Source: Thomasclavelia sp. (GTDB taxonomy: Bacteria; Bacillota_I; Bacilli_A; Erysipelotrichales; Coprobacillaceae). From it: a stretch of DNA of 35,669 nt. The stretch spans positions 1-35,669 of the forward strand of contig NZ_JAGHEW010000016.1 in assembly GCF_017889095.1 (NCBI RefSeq), read 5' to 3'. The notes beneath the pieces were generated by a model. That model was not told where the DNA came from, did not search any database, and saw only the letters and a program-made list of their open reading frames with translations. Made by a program: the position numbers and the translations under genes. This document shows positions 17,874 through 25,514 of the stretch, one piece after another; position 1 is the first letter of the stretch, and each line of letters starts with the position of its first letter.

Positions 17874-20800
17874 ATGAAAAAGATAGATGAAATATTAAAG
17901 AATAATCCAGCTTTTAAAGCTGTTTTAAAAGGACAAGGAAATATCGTCGTTAATGATGTTAACGATGAGGCACTATTAATAACTAGTGCCTTTTTGCATT
18001 TACAAAAAAATATTGTTGTTATTAAGGCAAATCAGTATGAAGCTAATCTATTATATCAGCAGTTAGCTTTGATCAATGAAGAAGATAGTTTATATTTTCC
18101 GGTTGATGAATCTTATCGGATTGAAGCTTTAGCTTCTTCACCAGAATTATTAGGACAACGAATCGATGCTTTATATCGCCTTACTTTAAATAAACCGAAG
18201 ATCTTGATTACCCATGGTCAGGCTTTGGTTCGTTATTTACCTAAAAAACAATTATTTTTAAATAACTGTTTAGAGTTGAAAGTAGGACAGCAGTTAGATA
18301 TTTATCAGTTGCAAAAACAATTAATCCAGGCTGGATATCAACATACGATGCGAGTTGATCAGCCGTTTTATTATTCTAAACGTGGTGGCGTAATTGATGT
18401 TTTTTCAATTCAAAATGAAAATCCGGTTCGAATCGAATTCTTTGATGATGAAATCGACAGTATTCGCTACTATGATCAAAATAGTCAAAGAACGATTGAA
18501 GCAGTCAGCCAGGTAACTATTATCCCTGCTAGTGATATTTTATATGATGATAATGAGGTTGTAGCGGTATTAAGCAAGATCAATGATTTACGTGATCAAC
18601 AGTATGAAGAACTTGATGAAATCTATCAAGATGACTATTTAAGTAAAGTTGCTGTTGATCAGGAAAGTCTACGTAATCATGACACTAGTTTTAATATGTA
18701 TAGCTATTTTAATTTATTTAAACAAACGGCTAGTTTATTAGATTATCTTGATGATCCATTGATCATTCAGGTAAATCGTCCAGAAATTGAAATTGCTTAT
18801 AAACATTATTTAGAAGAAAACTTTTATTATTATCAAGAATTAAGCAGTATGGGTAAAAGTGTTAAAGGATTGAATTTATTTAGTGATCTTTATAAAATAA
18901 TTGATCAGCCAGCCGTTTATTTTAATCCATTCACTAAAACTGATCAGGATATTTTCTTTAATGCCCGGTTAGTTATGCTTGATAATAATGATGAAAAGAT
19001 GTTAATTCATCAAATTCGTGATTATTTAAAAACCGCTAAAGTTTTATTAGCTTTAGATGATGAACACCAGGTCAAACTGATGTGTGATTTATTTGATCGC
19101 CATGAAATGTTATATACTTTAGTTGGGATCAAGGATGATTTATATCCGGGATTAAATATAGGTATTTATCGTTTAAATGCGGGAATTGAATTAGTTGATG
19201 AAAAACTAGTAATCATTAGTGCTAATGAGTTATTTAAAACACGTAATTTAAATAAACCAAAATATTTAAAGTATAAAAATGCTAAAGTTATTAAAGATTA
19301 TCAAGAGTTAAATGTCGGTGACTATGTTGTACATGATAATCATGGAATTGGACAATATCTGGGAATTAAGACCTTAGAAGTCCAAGGTTTTCATAAAGAT
19401 TATTTATATGTTGCTTATGCTGGTAACGATACTTTATATATCCCTGTTGAACAGTTTAAGATGATCCGTAAATATTCCGGAGTTGAAGGAAAAGTTCCAA
19501 AACTTAATAAACTTGGAACATCAAACTGGCAAAAAGCTAAGGCTAAAGCTAGAAATAAAGTTGATGATATTGCTGAAAGATTAATTGAAATCTATGCGGC
19601 AAGAATTAATCAGCCTGGTTTTGCTTTTCCGCCTGATGATAAGCTGCAATTAGATTTTGAAAATGATTTTGGTTACGAATTAACACCCGATCAGGCTCGT
19701 TCAGTAGCTGAAATTAAAGCGGATATGGAAAAACCACAGCCAATGGATCGTTTATTATGTGGCGATGTTGGTTTTGGAAAAACGGAAGTAGCTTTACGAG
19801 CTGCCTTTAAAGCCATTGAAGCCAATAAGCAGGTTGCTTTTTTATGTCCAACAACTATTTTATCCATGCAACATTATAAAACGATGGAAGAAAGGTTTAA
19901 AAACTTCCCTATTAATATTGCTTTATTGAATCGTTTTACTACCACTAAAGCTAAAAAGCAAATCTTAGCTGATTTAAAAGAAGGAAAGATTGATTTATTA
20001 GTTGGAACTCATCGAATCTTGTCTAAAGATGTTGTTTTTAAAGATATTGGATTATTATGTATTGATTAAGAACAACGTTTTTTAGTTCGTCAAAAAGAAA
20101 AACTCAAAGAATATCGAAAAACAATCGATGTTTTAACTTTAAGTGCTACCCCAATTCCAAGAACATTACAAATGTCATTAATGGGAATTAGGGGATTATC
20201 GCAAATTGAAACTCCGCCTAAAAACCGTCAGCCGGTGCAAACTTATGTAGTTGGTAAAAACAATGTGTTAATTAAACAAATCATTGAACGTGAATTAGCT
20301 CGTGATGGTCAAGTTTTCTATTTATATAACCAAACTAATCAAATTGCCAATGTGGCTTATAATATTTCTTTAAATGTGCCTAACGCTAAAGTAGCGATTG
20401 GTCATGGGCAAATGGATAAAAATGAACTCGAAGATGTGATGATGCGTTTTGTCAACAAGGAATTTAATGTTTTAGTATGTACAACAATTATTGAAACTGG
20501 AATTGACATTCCTAACGCCAATACAATTATTGTTGAAAATGCCGATCGTTTTGGGTTAAGTCAGTTATACCAGATCAAAGGTCGAGTAGGCCGCAGTAGT
20601 CGTGGGGCTTATGCATATTTATTATATAATCCTTCAAAAATTTTAAATGAAGAAGCCAGCAAACGCCTTAAAGCAATTAAAGAGTTTACCGAATTAGGTA
20701 GTGGTTATAAAATTGCTATGCGTGATCTAGCAATTCGTGGTGCTGGTGATATTTTAGGAGGAACCCAGTCAGGCTTTATCGACACTATTGGTTTTGAAAT

Positions 20801-21305
20801 GTATATGAAGATCTTACAAGATGCCATTGATGAAAAAATGGGTAAAGTAACTAATGAAAAAGAAATTAAAGCTGTTAATGTCAAAGTTGACGGTTATATT
20901 CCTCATGATTATGTTTCTAGTGACATTGAAAAATTAGAATTATATCAGCGTTTAGATCAGGTTACTTCAATTAATGCAATTGATCATTTAAAATCAGAAT
21001 TTATTGATTATTATGGAAAATTACCAGATGAAGTAGCTATGTTGATTGAAAAGCGAAAGTTAGATATTTTAGCTGCTAGTTCAATTGTTGATGACATTAG
21101 TGAAGTCAAAGATAAAATTGAAGTTACTTTTACTAAACAATATAGCCAGGAGTTAAAAGGAGAACAGTTATTTGAATTAGTTAATCGCTTATTTACCCGC
21201 CCAGGATTTAAACAGTCTGGAGGTCAAATCAAGCTGATTTTACCAAAATCTGATCAATGGTTAGAAAGAATTAATCAGTTGATCACAACTTTAAATGAGG
21301 CGTAA
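17874..21305 (+). pseudogene. mfd: Transcription-repair coupling factor, interrupted by an in-frame TAA in the DEEQ box
   Basis: Mfd removes RNA polymerase stalled at DNA lesions and recruits UvrA. The track splits it into 17874-20069 and 20172-21305, but both lie in one frame, and the 102 bases between encode perfect Mfd sequence (EQRFLVRQKEKL..., LTLSATPIPRT). A single TAA at 20067-20069 (codon 732) replaces the first Glu of DEEQ, the Walker B catalytic position (LLCID-stop-EQRF). The N-terminal product keeps the UvrB-like region, the RNAP-interacting region (GDYVVHDNHGIGQYLGI) and Walker A (GDVGFGKTE), but lacks helicase motifs III-VI and the C-terminal TRCF domain. The ATG at 20172 has no good ribosome site. 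GAA to TAA is a one-base change; sequencing error or strain variation is possible. Confidence 0.9.
17968..17995 (+). other. Terminator-like hairpin inside the 5' end of mfd
   Basis: An 8-bp perfect stem (AGGCACTA / TAGTGCCT) with an 8-base loop and a run of five T, about 95 bases into the mfd reading frame. It has every feature of an intrinsic terminator on the sense strand, yet sits within codons for DEALLITSAFLHL. Confidence 0.6.
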
Positions 21306-21315
21306 GCCTCTTTTT
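21297..21315 (+). terminator. Intrinsic terminator after mfd
   Basis: A 5-bp GC-rich stem (GAGGC / GCCTC) whose loop holds the mfd stop codon, followed by five T. The last codons of mfd form the left arm. Confidence 0.75.
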
Positions 21316-21334
21316 GTTTGCTTTCCTAACAAAA

Positions 21335-21379
21335 AATGAACATTGTTCATTGATTTTCTTTAGTTAATTATTTTATAAT
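21335..21379 (+). promoter_or_regulatory. Promoter and palindromic operator of the TetR gene
   Basis: A 17-bp palindrome AATGAACATTGTTCATT (21335-21351) touches a -35 box TTGATT (21350-21355). The -10 TATAAT (21374-21379) follows after 18 bases. A near-identical palindrome lies before the downstream methyltransferase gene, so this is very likely the TetR protein's own operator. Confidence 0.8.
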
Positions 21380-21395
21380 GATTAAAGAGGTGGCT

Positions 21396-21956
21396 ATGAT
21401 GAATAAAAATGAACTTAGAAAACAAGAGATTATGGAAACGGCAATGGAATTATTTAAAGAAAAGGGCTATAAACAAACATCAATGCGCGATATCGCTAAA
21501 AAAATGAATGTTTCTTTGGGATTGTGTTATCGCTATTTTGATTCTAAGCAGATTATTTTTAATAGTGCAATAGATATATATATACAAAAATGCTGCGAAG
21601 ATTTTTTAAAGATTTTAAATGATGATAAGCTGCTACTTAAAGAAAAAATTGATTATCTATATTCAAGTATAGTTGATGATCATGATAAATTTGTTTATCA
21701 TAATTTCTTTCATCAAATTGAAAATCAGGCGTTTCATCAAGAACTATCAATAAAACTTTGTCAGTTTATTTATCCTCATCTTTTAAAAACCGTTAAACAG
21801 GCTATTGATCAAGAAAATTTGAAAATTGAAGATCCGGAAATTTTAGTAAGTTTTATTGTTTATGGGCATTTAGATATTTTATCTTGTCATGATGTAAATC
21901 ATCATCAAGCTGCATCAAGATTAAAAGAATATGTTTATAAATTAATTGATCTATAA
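21396..21956 (+). CDS. TetR/AcrR-family transcriptional repressor
   Basis: An N-terminal TetR HTH (EIMETAMELFKEKGYKQTSMRDIAKKMNVSLGLCYRYFDSK) is followed by an all-helical ligand and dimer domain; 186 residues from the ATG at 21396. The track start at 21378 overlaps the -10 box and cannot be used by this promoter. AGAGG precedes 21396 by five bases (the ATG at 21399 is also possible). Operators with the same half-site TGAAC lie before this gene and before the methyltransferase, so it likely represses both itself and the two genes downstream. The inducer is unknown. Confidence 0.93.
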   Translation: MMNKNELRKQEIMETAMELFKEKGYKQTSMRDIAKKMNVSLGLCYRYFDSKQIIFNSAIDIYIQKCCEDFLKILNDDKLLLKEKIDYLYSSIVDDHDKFVYHNFFHQIENQAFHQELSIKLCQFIYPHLLKTVKQAIDQENLKIEDPEILVSFIVYGHLDILSCHDVNHHQAASRLKEYVYKLIDL

Positions 21957-21976
21957 ATCCCTGAAAGCAGGGATTT
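21955..21976 (+). terminator. Hairpin between TetR and methyltransferase genes
   Basis: A 9-bp perfect stem (AAATCCCTG / CAGGGATTT) with a 4-base loop, but no T-run follows. It may be a weak or factor-assisted terminator, allowing some read-through into the methyltransferase gene. Confidence 0.5.
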
Positions 21977-21990
21977 AAATATATTAAAAA

Positions 21991-22007
21991 AATGAACAAT
22001 GTTCATT
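21991..22007 (+). promoter_or_regulatory. Second TetR-type operator, before the methyltransferase gene
   Basis: AATGAACAATGTTCATT differs from the operator at 21335-21351 only in the central base; it is its exact reverse complement. It lies just downstream of a TATATT -10-like box (21980-21985), over the expected transcription start and just ahead of the GGAGG ribosome site, a position that would block initiation. Confidence 0.8.
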
Positions 22008-22020
22008 TACGGAGGCAAGT

Positions 22021-22632
22021 ATGAATAAAAAGGAACAAACATTAAAAACATTTAATCGACAGGCAAAAGTTTATGATCATAGTATGTTTAGTAAACACGC
22101 TAAAAAATTATATCCTAAAATATTGGATACCGTTATTAAAACTGATAGTTTGGAAATACTAGATTTAGGCTGTGGTACTGGTGAATTAATGAAACTATTA
22201 TTAGAGAATAATGATCGCTATCAGCTTACGGGAATTGATCTGTCTTCGAAGATGATTGAAATAGCTAATGAAAAGTTAGCCAATCGAGTTAAATTAGTTA
22301 TTGGTGATAGTGAAAATTTACCCTTTGATGATAATAGCTTTGATTTAGTTTATTGTAATGATTCGTTTCATCATTATGTAGAAGTAGAGCAGGTTATCAA
22401 AGAAATTAGCCGGGTTTTAAAAAAAGATGGTTATTTGATCATTGGTGATCTTTATCAAACAGCGCTTATTAGAAAGATATTTAATTTTTTATTACGATTT
22501 AATAATGAAGGCGATGTTCATGTTTATAGTAAAAAAGAAATGATTAGTTTATTAAGACCGCATTTTAAGCAAATTGAATTTGAAAGAATAGGACATGATG
22601 GGTTTATGGTTAAAGGAGTAGTAATTAAATAA
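22021..22632 (+). CDS. Class I SAM-dependent methyltransferase
   Basis: 203 residues with the Rossmann SAM-binding motif I LEILDLGCGTGELM, an acidic motif II (LTGIDLSSKMIEIA), GDSENLPFDDNSFDLVYCND and a late DGYLIIGDLYQ strand: the Methyltransf_11 / UbiE-like arrangement. It has no DNA- or rRNA-specific domain, so a small molecule or lipid is the likelier acceptor; the substrate is unknown. The gene has an ideal GGAGG ribosome site. A TetR operator over its start region suggests expression only when the TetR ligand is present, as in resistance or detoxification modules. The next gene overlaps its stop codon by one base. Confidence 0.9.
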   Translation: MNKKEQTLKTFNRQAKVYDHSMFSKHAKKLYPKILDTVIKTDSLEILDLGCGTGELMKLLLENNDRYQLTGIDLSSKMIEIANEKLANRVKLVIGDSENLPFDDNSFDLVYCNDSFHHYVEVEQVIKEISRVLKKDGYLIIGDLYQTALIRKIFNFLLRFNNEGDVHVYSKKEMISLLRPHFKQIEFERIGHDGFMVKGVVIK

Positions 22633-22985
22633 TGAAAGATTATACCAGACGAAAATATTTGCGTACGATATACCAGTTGGCACTGTCAAAAAAAGAAGTT
22701 AGACAAATTGATCTAGCCTTAACTTTAGGCTATGCTCGTTCAAGTGTTTCCTTAGCAGTTAAATATTTGCATCAGCAGGGATTGATTAATATTGATGGGA
22801 AGAATTTATCTTTAACAATGCAAGGCAAGCAGGAAGCTAAGTTAAGTTATCAGCAGTATTTAAAAACGTTGGCATTTGTTTTAAAACTAGGCTATGATAA
22901 CTATCAGGCAAATGAATATGTAAGAATAATGGAAGAGTACTTTGATTATGATTTTATTAATTCATTAATAGAAAAACAAGAATAA
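22632..22985 (+). CDS. Short DtxR/MntR-like winged-helix protein
   Basis: 117 residues. The N-terminal half is a winged helix of the iron/manganese-repressor type (YLRTIYQLALSKKEVRQIDLALTLGYARSSVSLAVKYLHQQGLI, then LTMQGKQEA). The C-terminal part (ANEYVRIMEEYFDYDFINSLI) resembles the DtxR-family dimerisation helix, but the metal-binding Cys/His/Glu pattern is poorly kept, so it may not sense metal. The start codon overlaps the methyltransferase stop (TAATG), so the two are translationally coupled and under the same TetR control. A MarR-like reading is the alternative. The target is unknown. Confidence 0.75.
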   Translation: MKDYTRRKYLRTIYQLALSKKEVRQIDLALTLGYARSSVSLAVKYLHQQGLINIDGKNLSLTMQGKQEAKLSYQQYLKTLAFVLKLGYDNYQANEYVRIMEEYFDYDFINSLIEKQE

Positions 22986-23007
22986 ACGAGTTTTTCGTTT
23001 ATTCTTG
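22977..23007. terminator. Bidirectional terminator shared by two convergent genes
   Basis: A 13-bp perfect stem (CAAGAATAAACGA / TCGTTTATTCTTG) with a GTTTT loop. The left arm includes the stop codon of the DtxR-like gene and the right arm includes the last codons of the dUTPase-like gene on minus. Confidence 0.75.
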
Positions 23008-23457
23008 AGCATAATTATTAACAATCGTTTCAAAATCTAAACCAATTTTAAATCCTAGAGTAAAATAATCATCAATACAGTTTTGGAATGCTTCAAAATT
23101 ATAACAATCATTAATTTTTAAAGCACTATGATAAACTTTGATTAATTGATTACTAATAGTAGTCGGATCATTGATTTCCTGATAGTTTTTAACATTATCA
23201 ACATGTAATTCAAAACCAATCGACATTAACATGTGTAATCCAGAAATATAACATTCCAGTAAATCTTTATTGTCAGTTGAAGAATTATCCCAAAAGCTAA
23301 AAATATGGGCTTCTTCACCAACTTTACCTAATTCACAAAGAAATGCTAGAACTTTAGCTTCCACTTTATCTTTGTTTAAAACAGCATGATCAGGATTACT
23401 AGCAAGTTTTAATTCATTGGTTACATGCTGGTGATATATTTTATTAATTTCATTCAT
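22999..23457 (-). CDS. dUTPase_2 / MazG-like all-alpha protein, possibly without its metal ligands
   Basis: 152 residues. The middle (AFLCELGKVGEEAHIFSFWDN... LLECYISGLHMLMSIGFEL) lines up with dimeric dUTP diphosphatases, whose usual form is close to LLVELGELANExxxFKFW and EEYVDGLHFLLSLG. In that remembered alignment several Mg-binding acids are changed: E to K in the first motif, and E and D to C and S in the second. The protein may therefore be inactive or have a changed role. It has a good AGAGGTG ribosome site and its own transcript, and converges on the DtxR-like gene. The family call is fairly sure; the loss of activity is inference needing an alignment. Confidence 0.7.
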   Translation of the reverse strand: MNEINKIYHQHVTNELKLASNPDHAVLNKDKVEAKVLAFLCELGKVGEEAHIFSFWDNSSTDNKDLLECYISGLHMLMSIGFELHVDNVKNYQEINDPTTISNQLIKVYHSALKINDCYNFEAFQNCIDDYFTLGFKIGLDFETIVNNYAQE

Positions 23458-23511
23458 TAATTTTCACCTCTTACTAGTATTATACTCCTTTTTATGTCCT
23501 TTTCATTAATT

Positions 23512-24105
23512 TTATTCAATATAATCATCACGAAGATGAACTTTAGTATATTGATTATTAGTGAGATCCTGGATGATATCTAAAAAAGTAATATTTTTTA
23601 AATAACATTCATAACTTACCTGATCTAAATATTCTTTATTGATGCATTCAATTTGATGAACTTTTAATAAATGTTCAAATTTTTTAGTATATGAATAACC
23701 AATGGTTATTTTATATAGGGGTACTAAATGTTTTTCAACAATATCAGCAACTTTTAAAGCATCGGCGACACTTTGGCGATAAGCTCGCGTTAAACCGCCA
23801 GCTCCTAATTTAATTCCCCCAAAATAGCGAGTAACAATAGCAATGATATTAGATAACTCATTTTTTTCTAATACATCTAACATCGGCACTCCCGCTGTTT
23901 TGCTTGGTTCACCATCATCATAAGCTCTTTTAGCATTATTTACGATATAAGCAACGCAGTTATGAGTAGCATCATGATAAATTTGTTTATATTCATTAAT
24001 AATTTGATCAACCTGACTTTCATCGTTACAAGGTATCAAAGTACAAATAAATTCTGATTTTTTGATTACCAGACGATTAACGGTTATTTTACGTACTGAT
24101 TTCAT
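23512..24105 (-). CDS. YigZ/IMPACT-family protein
   Basis: 197 residues. UPF0029 signature sequences are present: THNCVAYIV, YDDGEPSKTAGVPMLDVL and VTRYFGGIKLGAGGLTRAY in the N-terminal IMPACT domain, followed by the smaller ferredoxin-like C-terminal domain (YKITIGYSYTKKFEHLL). The family occurs in most bacteria; eukaryotic IMPACT acts on translation control, but the bacterial role is not settled. It lies just upstream of the dUTPase-like gene on the same strand (54 bases) and is divergent from degV. The start is supported by a GAGGG ribosome site. The usual Gly in DDGEPSGTAG is Lys here. Confidence 0.92.
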   Translation of the reverse strand: MKSVRKITVNRLVIKKSEFICTLIPCNDESQVDQIINEYKQIYHDATHNCVAYIVNNAKRAYDDGEPSKTAGVPMLDVLEKNELSNIIAIVTRYFGGIKLGAGGLTRAYRQSVADALKVADIVEKHLVPLYKITIGYSYTKKFEHLLKVHQIECINKEYLDQVSYECYLKNITFLDIIQDLTNNQYTKVHLRDDYIE

Positions 24106-24199: not shown

Positions 24200-25081
24200 A
24201 TGAAAAAAATAGCTGTTTTAGCAGATAGTGGATGTCAATTTCCAATTGGTTCATTAGAAGACCAGGGAATCTATATTGTCCCATTGACAGTTACAATGGG
24301 TGAACAAACATATCTTGATTTACAGGAAATTAGTGCTGAAGAGGTTTTTAGACGAATGGAAAGAACTGGAGAGATGGTATTAACTTCACAACCATCAACA
24401 GGTTCGATTCAAGGAGCAGTTCACAAAATCAAAGAAGCCGGTTATGACCATATTATTGCATTACCGATTGCAACGGGATTATCATCAACTTTAAACGGGA
24501 TGAAATTGGCTTGTGATATGGTTAAAATTCCTGTTACTTTAATTGATACGAAAGCAACGGCTAGTAATCAGCGCTATTTAATTAGAGTCGCTAAAAAATT
24601 AATTGATGATGGTAAAAGTGTTGAGGAAATAGAAAAAATCTTAACTTCTTTAGTTGAAGATTCTGGAACGTTGATCATGGTACCTAACTTAGATCATTTA
24701 AAAAAAGGTGGTCGAATCACTCCCGCAGTAGCAATTTTAGGGAATTTATTAAAAATTGTGCCAGTAATGAAACTAAATTATAAACTAGGTGGCAAGATTG
24801 ATACTTTTGATAAAGTAAGAACGATTAAAAAAGCTAATTTACGAATCATTGATCATTTGGTTAATGACTGTCATGTAAATAATAAAGACTATATTATTGC
24901 CATTGAACATGTTTTGGTTGATGAATTAGCTAACCAGATGAAACAAGAGTTGATCAAACGAATCGGTGAATGTTATATTACTGTAAGAGAATTACCGGCA
25001 GTTGTTGGAGCTCATATGGGTGTTGGCGGTGTTGGCTATCAATTTATTCGAAAATATGAGGGCTTATCATGGAACGAATAA
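24200..25081 (+). CDS. DegV-family fatty-acid-binding protein
   Basis: 293 residues from the ATG at 24200, eight bases after AGGAGG; the track's ATG at 24194 is only two bases from it. The N-terminal [12 protein letters not shown], the [13 protein letters not shown] segment and the [10 protein letters not shown] motif are typical of DegV proteins, which bind a fatty acid (as FakB does for the FakA kinase) and hand it over for phosphorylation. There is no fakA in the window, so its role in exogenous fatty acid use is by family only. Its last 13 bases overlap the start of luxS, so the two are translationally coupled. Confidence 0.93.
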
Positions 25082-25514
25082 CTAGTTTTTGTGTCGACCA
25101 TACCAAATTAACACCAGGTGTTTATGTTTCTCGTGTCGATGATAATTTAACGACTTTCGATCTTCGAATGACGACGCCTAACCTGGAGCCAGCTTTAAAA
25201 CCTGAAGCAGCACATACAATTGAACATATTGGGGCAACTTTACTTCGTATGGTGTATATAAAGATAAAATTATCTATTTTGGTCCCATGGGCTGTATGAC
25301 GGGATTTTATTTAATTACTAAAGATTTATCATTAGAATTTGTAATTGAGTTAGTTAAAGATACTTTTAAGCAAATTGCCATTTGGGATGGAGAAATTCCT
25401 GGTGCTTTTAAAGAAGAGTGCGGTAATTATACTTACATGGATCTAACAGGGGCAAAAAAAGCTGCCCAGCATTATTTAAACGCTAAATGGCAGCATCAAT
25501 ATCATTATTTATAA
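25069..25514 (+). pseudogene. luxS: S-ribosylhomocysteine lyase, frameshifted
   Basis: LuxS cleaves S-ribosylhomocysteine to homocysteine and the precursor of autoinducer 2. The first part ([22 protein letters not shown], then the metal-binding HTIEH) is read from 25069. The second ([10 protein letters not shown], with a catalytic Cys, and EECGNYTYMDL) is in another frame. Around 25246-25250 the sequence reads CGTATGGT where CGT AAT GGT would keep one frame ([13 protein letters not shown]), so one A is missing from an AA pair. Restored length would be 148 residues, normal for LuxS. The truncated product keeps HTIEH but loses the later Cys residues and would be inactive. A one-base assembly error would look the same. 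Confidence 0.9.

Follow-up and report, generated by a model that had tools for sequence, protein, structure and literature searches.

A tetR operon with two candidate operators

We found that a small group of genes from Thomasclavelia sp. is best explained as a three-gene, locally acting, self-regulating TetR operon with two operators, and we put the probability of this reading at roughly 85%. Two observations argue for such a switch: palindromes are kept at both places in five operons, and the operator covaries with the recognition helix of the repressor. Unless another locus is named, coordinates refer to the analyzed stretch of 35,669 nucleotides (the window).

All three genes lie on the forward strand. 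The first (21396-21956) encodes a TetR-family repressor of 186 amino acids (PF00440, E = 1.1e-14), and the second (22021-22632) encodes a class I SAM-dependent methyltransferase of 203 amino acids (Methyltransf_11, PF08241, E = 6.7e-30). The third (22632-22985) encodes a DtxR-fold winged-helix protein of 117 amino acids (PF01325, E = 6e-8). Its coupling to the methyltransferase gene by TAATG, as described earlier, is real and lies at 22630-22634.

The upstream neighbor of the operon is mfd (17874-21305), which is closed by a hairpin that resembles an intrinsic terminator (21297-21318, forward strand; stem GAGGC..GCCTC, then TTTTTG). This is the sole terminator-like site in 21200-22100. Downstream, on the opposite strand, are genes for a dUTPase_2-family protein and a YigZ-family protein. 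Two neighboring genes are interrupted. mfd has an in-frame TAA at 20067-20069, where relatives have GAA, within the helicase DEEQ motif (D*EQRFLV vs. DEEQRFGV); either the gene is truly damaged or the assembly, which has 410 contigs, is wrong at this point. Also, luxS (25069-25514) is split by a frameshift near 25250 and is intact in three loci from relatives (L047-L049).

The preliminary description of this DNA reported the same 17-bp palindrome on opposite strands before tetR and before the methyltransferase gene, and we found both copies there. Operator 1, AATGAACATTGTTCATT, is at 21335-21351, and operator 2, AATGAACAATGTTCATT, is at 21991-22007. They differ only at the central base and are thus one sequence read from opposite strands. 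Operator 2 is a perfect palindrome over 19 bp (21990-22008). We consider both to be candidate TetR sites because of their sequence, their count in the genome, and their conservation.

The core of the palindrome, TGAACAWTGTTCA, occurs exactly twice in the genome (3,193,849 bp). The two copies are 656 bp apart, one on each side of tetR, and the reversed control pattern does not occur. From base composition, we would expect 0.24 copies per genome of the core and 0.004 copies of the 17-mer. The preliminary description had proposed a genome scan and had named many unrelated copies as the outcome that would count against it; the core is absent from the rest of the 3.19 Mb. When we looked for a wider regulon in this genome, the four remaining TGAACNNNGTTCA sites all fell within coding genes, which points to a local regulon. 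A literature search with the letters of the palindrome gave a single match, to an unrelated paper.

Operator 1 is at the predicted promoter of tetR, a sigma-A-type promoter at 21350-21379 (forward strand) with TTGATT at 21350-21355, a spacer of 18 nucleotides, and TATAAT at 21374-21379. The overlap with the -35 box that had been proposed is confirmed, and it amounts to 2 bp of the -35-like TTGATT. A promoter of the form TTGxxx and TATAAT lies 3' of operator 1 at corresponding places in all five orthologous loci. Near this site, the five loci agree in the palindrome, in the adjacent TTG of the -35 box, and in TATAAT, and the rest of the non-coding sequence is mostly divergent. By sequence and by conservation, then, a palindromic candidate operator is present at TetR's own promoter.

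The TetR protein itself is unexceptional. Its N-terminal helix-turn-helix (TetR_N) matches PF00440 with 54.3 bits (the cut-off is 24). The structure model (pLDDT 86.6) is all-helical, with nine helices and a C-terminal ligand/dimer domain, and the best 50 matches in a fold search of the PDB were all TetR-family structures, so the modeled fold is normal for the family. These matches did not indicate a ligand: QacR, LuxR/HapR, GusR, RolR, and FadR are mixed together at 13-22% identity. Against the NCBIfam equivalogs, the protein scored far below every cut-off, and a literature search for Thomasclavelia with TetR found nothing on point.

Conservation of the operon and both operators

To find orthologs of TetR, we searched the proteins of 60 relatives and found four, which are about 44-59% identical to the protein from the window. 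They are from Thomasclavelia saccharogumia DSM 17460, an uncultured Thomasclavelia, another genome of the same genus (G006), and Candidatus Stoquefichus massiliensis AP9. In each of these genomes, the tetR, methyltransferase, and winged-helix genes are in the same order, and all three are orthologous by protein alignment. The operon is therefore found in five genomes, four from Thomasclavelia and one from Ca. Stoquefichus massiliensis. In Ca. Stoquefichus, the flanking genes are different, which suggests that the three genes move together or are retained together. Beyond the Coprobacillaceae, 316 genomes from the order added one distant TetR and 392 genomes from across the phylum added none. 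A further scan of the contigs of genomes added only TetR relatives with other neighbors.

Each of the five operons has the palindrome at both places; in G006, the second copy is TGAACATCGTTCA, with one core base changed. This sequence conservation supports the earlier proposal of a single repressor that acts at two operators and controls its own gene, with a second regulator nested in the operon. It also bears on whether the palindromes might be due to chance or might be RNA hairpins that are unlinked to TetR. A perfect palindrome can fold in mRNA, and the window does contain other perfect palindromes of comparable length, but this one is confined, in this genome, to the locus, recurs at both positions in all five operons, and varies with the recognition helix among relatives (see below). 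We consider this explanation to be extremely improbable.

The two operators are 656, 659, 661, 672, or 696 bp apart in the five operons. A near-identical pair of operators at a similar distance in every operon could also mean that TetR, bound to both, loops the DNA in between for tighter repression, with operator 2 as an auxiliary site as in the lac operon. However, the spacings share no helical phase, and operator 2 is tight against a ribosome-binding site, which a loop does not require. Also, a TetR-family repressor normally works as one dimer and does not bridge two sites. This makes looping very unlikely in our view.

Across the genomes of the 60 relatives (including the window's own), the exact core occurs at 22 sites, of which 14 are at the edges of tetR-family genes and 8 fall within other coding genes (dnaJ and glmU, for example). 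Every copy outside the main reading frames adjoins a tetR-family gene, although this association is partly selected, as several unrelated TetRs were found via the palindrome itself. Some of the tetR genes at these sites are unrelated to the one in the window, and in two loci (L051 and L053), tetR is flanked by a site on each side.

Two other loci encode an unrelated TetR with two tandem TGAAC-N3-GTTCA sites upstream, 25-26 bp apart (L034, 1476-1513; L043, 1475-1513). One site is between the -35 and -10 boxes and the other is just before the ribosome-binding site. A TetR of this type has an FMN-reductase-like neighbor in locus L055.

The operator changes with the recognition helix

More informative are three distant relatives of TetR that were found by protein sequence only (in loci L066, L067, and L168), which have glutamine instead of leucine just before the glycine of the recognition helix. 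The palindrome upstream of these genes is TGAAT..ATTCA in place of TGAAC..GTTCA. The residue in question is Leu41 of the TetR from the window. All seven proteins with leucine have TGAAC sites (the seven include the five orthologs, and two of them were found through the site), all three with glutamine have TGAAT sites, and twelve others have neither. These sequences suggest a possible specificity rule, in which leucine or glutamine before the recognition-helix glycine would set the preference for TGAAC or TGAAT half-sites. The rule would be a simple one. The two palindromes themselves provide a clean operator assignment, open to direct testing, for a TetR family of gut Coprobacillaceae that is uncharacterised.

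One of the three loci (L066) repeats the layout of the window: TGAAT..ATTCA is found at 1359-1375 and at 2034-2050, before tetR and before the next gene, with a hairpin in between. This locus is from a metagenome-assembled genome labelled Oscillospiraceae, its TetR is a distant relative, and its cargo is a ketopantoate-reductase-like gene.

How operator 2 might act

The preliminary description placed the second palindrome over the start region of the methyltransferase gene. It ends 13 nucleotides before the ATG at 22021, directly 5' of the Shine-Dalgarno sequence GGAGG (22011-22015), and does not cover the start codon. Between tetR and operator 2, at the stop codon of tetR, is a hairpin that had been overlooked: AAATCCCTG-AAAG-CAGGGATTT (21955-21976, forward strand), which is not followed by a T run. 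A comparable hairpin is found at this position in all five operons and in L066. Besides the palindrome, this hairpin and the ribosome-binding site are what is conserved around operator 2.

The palindrome of operator 2 could form a hairpin in the mRNA as well, and a role at the RNA level is possible. Its conservation follows the DNA operator sequence, with almost no compensating changes, and a search of 20800-23600 against Rfam found no RNA family.

From the sequences, positions, uniqueness, and conservation of the palindromes, and from the change of operator with recognition helix, we infer binding, repression, release by a ligand, and a roadblock at operator 2. A TetR dimer would bind the 17-bp palindrome at both places. 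At operator 1, it would compete with RNA polymerase and so repress the entire operon, including its own gene. At operator 2, which lies between the stop codon of tetR and the ribosome-binding site of the methyltransferase gene, it would stop or slow any polymerase that had escaped from operator 1. In the repressed state, there would be a trickle of tetR mRNA, and the methyltransferase and winged-helix genes would be off. A small ligand in the C-terminal domain of TetR would release both sites. The winged-helix protein, which would be made last, may feed back at a repeat beside operator 1.

Operator 2 probably blocks read-through rather than initiation. The alternative is an internal promoter under its control, from which the methyltransferase and winged-helix genes would be transcribed as the second of two independently regulated units. 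TATATT at 21980-21985, just 5' of operator 2, could be the -10 box of a poor promoter, and a hairpin does precede operator 2. The gap of 64 bp between tetR and the methyltransferase gene also exceeds the 35 bp that were used to call co-transcription in a survey of Streptomyces (PMC3511530). Nevertheless, we found no plus-strand promoter match before operator 2 and no -10 or -35 element there that is conserved across the five operons. We favor the roadblock for these two reasons, and we think that an internal promoter is unlikely.

A second inverted repeat beside operator 1

Directly 5' of operator 1 is another inverted repeat, TTGTTTGCTTTCCTAACAA (21314-21332), which the preliminary description did not mention. 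The winged-helix protein encoded in the operon is a candidate to bind it. The consensus of the repeat in relatives is TTGTTAG-N5-CTAACAA, and all five operons have it at the same position, even where the upstream gene differs. The distance to operator 1, from center to center, is 20-21 bp, or two helical turns. The core, GTTAG-N5-CTAAC, is exact in three of the operons (those of the uncultured Thomasclavelia, G006, and Ca. Stoquefichus); the copies from the window and from T. saccharogumia each have one mismatch.

The third gene had been described as encoding a DtxR-like regulator. As far as the fold is concerned, this holds: the protein matches PF01325 with 33.2 bits (the cut-off is 26), and its sequence matches the structures of MntR, SloR, and DtxR, with MntR (2h09, E = 6.4e-10) as the best solved relative. 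The metal ligands of DtxR (M10, C102, E105, and H106 in the established numbering) are where the likeness breaks down. In an alignment with paralogs, the position of Met10 is lysine in all five operon proteins, the position of Cys102 is variable, and the position of His106 is never histidine. In contrast, the metal-dependent paralogs from the same bacterial family retain (E)M...ACRxEH. Since the metal ligands are lost from all five operon proteins, we do not expect the winged-helix protein to sense metals as DtxR does. The preliminary description did not mention this loss.

Several of the metal-dependent DtxR paralogs in the Coprobacillaceae have AGTTAG-N6-CTAACT upstream of their own gene. 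This sequence is found in 40 of 43 Coprobacillaceae genomes and, in most of them, is more common than the reversed control. Copies lie before feoA, dtxR, a gene for a predicted binding lipoprotein of the iron-siderophore type, and a flavodoxin gene (the gene names are from inspection of the sequences). Because it lies before dtxR and feoA, GTTAG appears to be a DtxR-type half-site in these bacteria. The whole sequence looks like the iron box of the short DtxR-type regulators of the Coprobacillaceae (loci L172, L175, L182, L183, and L192), and a related sequence is the IdeR consensus of actinobacteria, TTAGGTTAGSCTAACCTAA (PMC8464063).

In the simplest reading, the winged-helix protein might be a metal-blind derivative of an iron-type DtxR that binds TTGTTAG-N5-CTAACAA, so that the products of the first and last genes jointly control one promoter. 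This would add to the TetR mechanism and would not replace TetR. The fixed position of the repeat in five of five operons, 20-21 bp from operator 1, fits with this idea, as do the half-site shared with the boxes of the metal-dependent paralogs and the consistent loss of metal ligands. On the other hand, the spacer of the repeat is 5 bp instead of the 6 bp in the family's iron box, the recognition helix differs (ARSSVSL vs. SKPSVSR), and the window's own repeat has a core mismatch. As a site for a genome-wide regulon, TGTTAG-N5-CTAACA failed: it is not enriched in the genome, where it has 10 sites and its reversed control has 16. The repeat would also fit the TnrA/GlnR-type pattern, TGTNA-N7-TNACA, and the sample is just five sequences. 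Given the changed spacer and helix, the mismatch, and the lack of enrichment across the genome, we rate binding by the winged-helix protein at somewhat short of an even bet.

Taken as a whole, the promoter might be served by two unrelated regulators, encoded at opposite ends of the operon, on adjacent sites. One would be TetR, which would sense a ligand and act at operator 1, with operator 2 as a roadblock within the operon; the other, two helical turns upstream, would be a metal-blind protein derived from DtxR. This combined picture is speculative, and we lean against it. If it is true, then a metal-blind DtxR was recruited as a built-in feedback factor, and a metalloregulator was re-used after the loss of its metal site.

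The methyltransferase and the ligand

The methyltransferase matches PF08241 over residues 47-141 (104 bits), and its SAM-binding motif, LDLGCGT, is invariant in the five orthologs. Among the 25 NCBIfam models listed for it, none reached its curated cut-off. The best score was for BioC (88.6 bits vs. a cut-off of 184.95), and UbiE, ArsM, and others were also below theirs. Searches of NCBIfam, Pfam, and the sequences in the PDB gave generic class I matches and did not indicate a specific function. The structure model is poor (pLDDT 51).

The preliminary description also suggested that the operon responds to, and modifies, a toxic compound. We did not find direct support for this: the methyltransferase does not fit any functionally defined family, and the distant TetR relatives are next to unrelated genes. 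Next to TetR relatives of the window's type are genes for a MATE transporter or for a ketopantoate-reductase-like enzyme, and such varied cargo fails to single out one kind of ligand. A toxic compound that is both the ligand of TetR and the substrate of the methyltransferase is only one possibility.

Comparison with known systems

The closest sequences of solved structure to the methyltransferase are LahSB (6uak) and YcgJ (1xxl), in the Methyltransf_11/UbiE/BioC group. It shares the SAM-binding core (LDLGCGTG) and a match to the whole domain with this group. Unlike the named members, it is a 203-residue protein that falls under the curated cut-off of every NCBIfam model listed.

Like the local autoregulators of the TetR/AcrR family (TetR, QacR, AcrR, and FadR), the repressor has a TetR_N helix-turn-helix, an all-helical C-terminal domain, a short palindromic candidate operator at its own promoter, and predicted control of adjacent genes. 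Unlike them, its target is downstream in the same direction rather than divergent, a second operator lies between the genes, and there is no known equivalog.

A roadblock is a known mode of action for GbsR of Bacillus subtilis (PMC7396694), and autoregulation by LacI at O3 is reported as another case of a roadblock operator (PMC3711431). As in these two systems, operator 2 lies 3' of the predicted transcription start and could stop an elongating polymerase. The difference is that the proposed roadblock operator here separates the gene for the repressor from its target within one operon.

With the DtxR, IdeR, and MntR repressors, the winged-helix protein shares its fold and a nearby inverted repeat with the GTTAG half-site of the family's iron boxes. 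It differs in that it does not have the conserved metal ligands, is nested in a TetR operon, and has a changed specificity helix. Overall, the module is an ordinary TetR design that is well conserved in relatives, and the possible second control site, for the product of the operon's last gene, is its less ordinary part.
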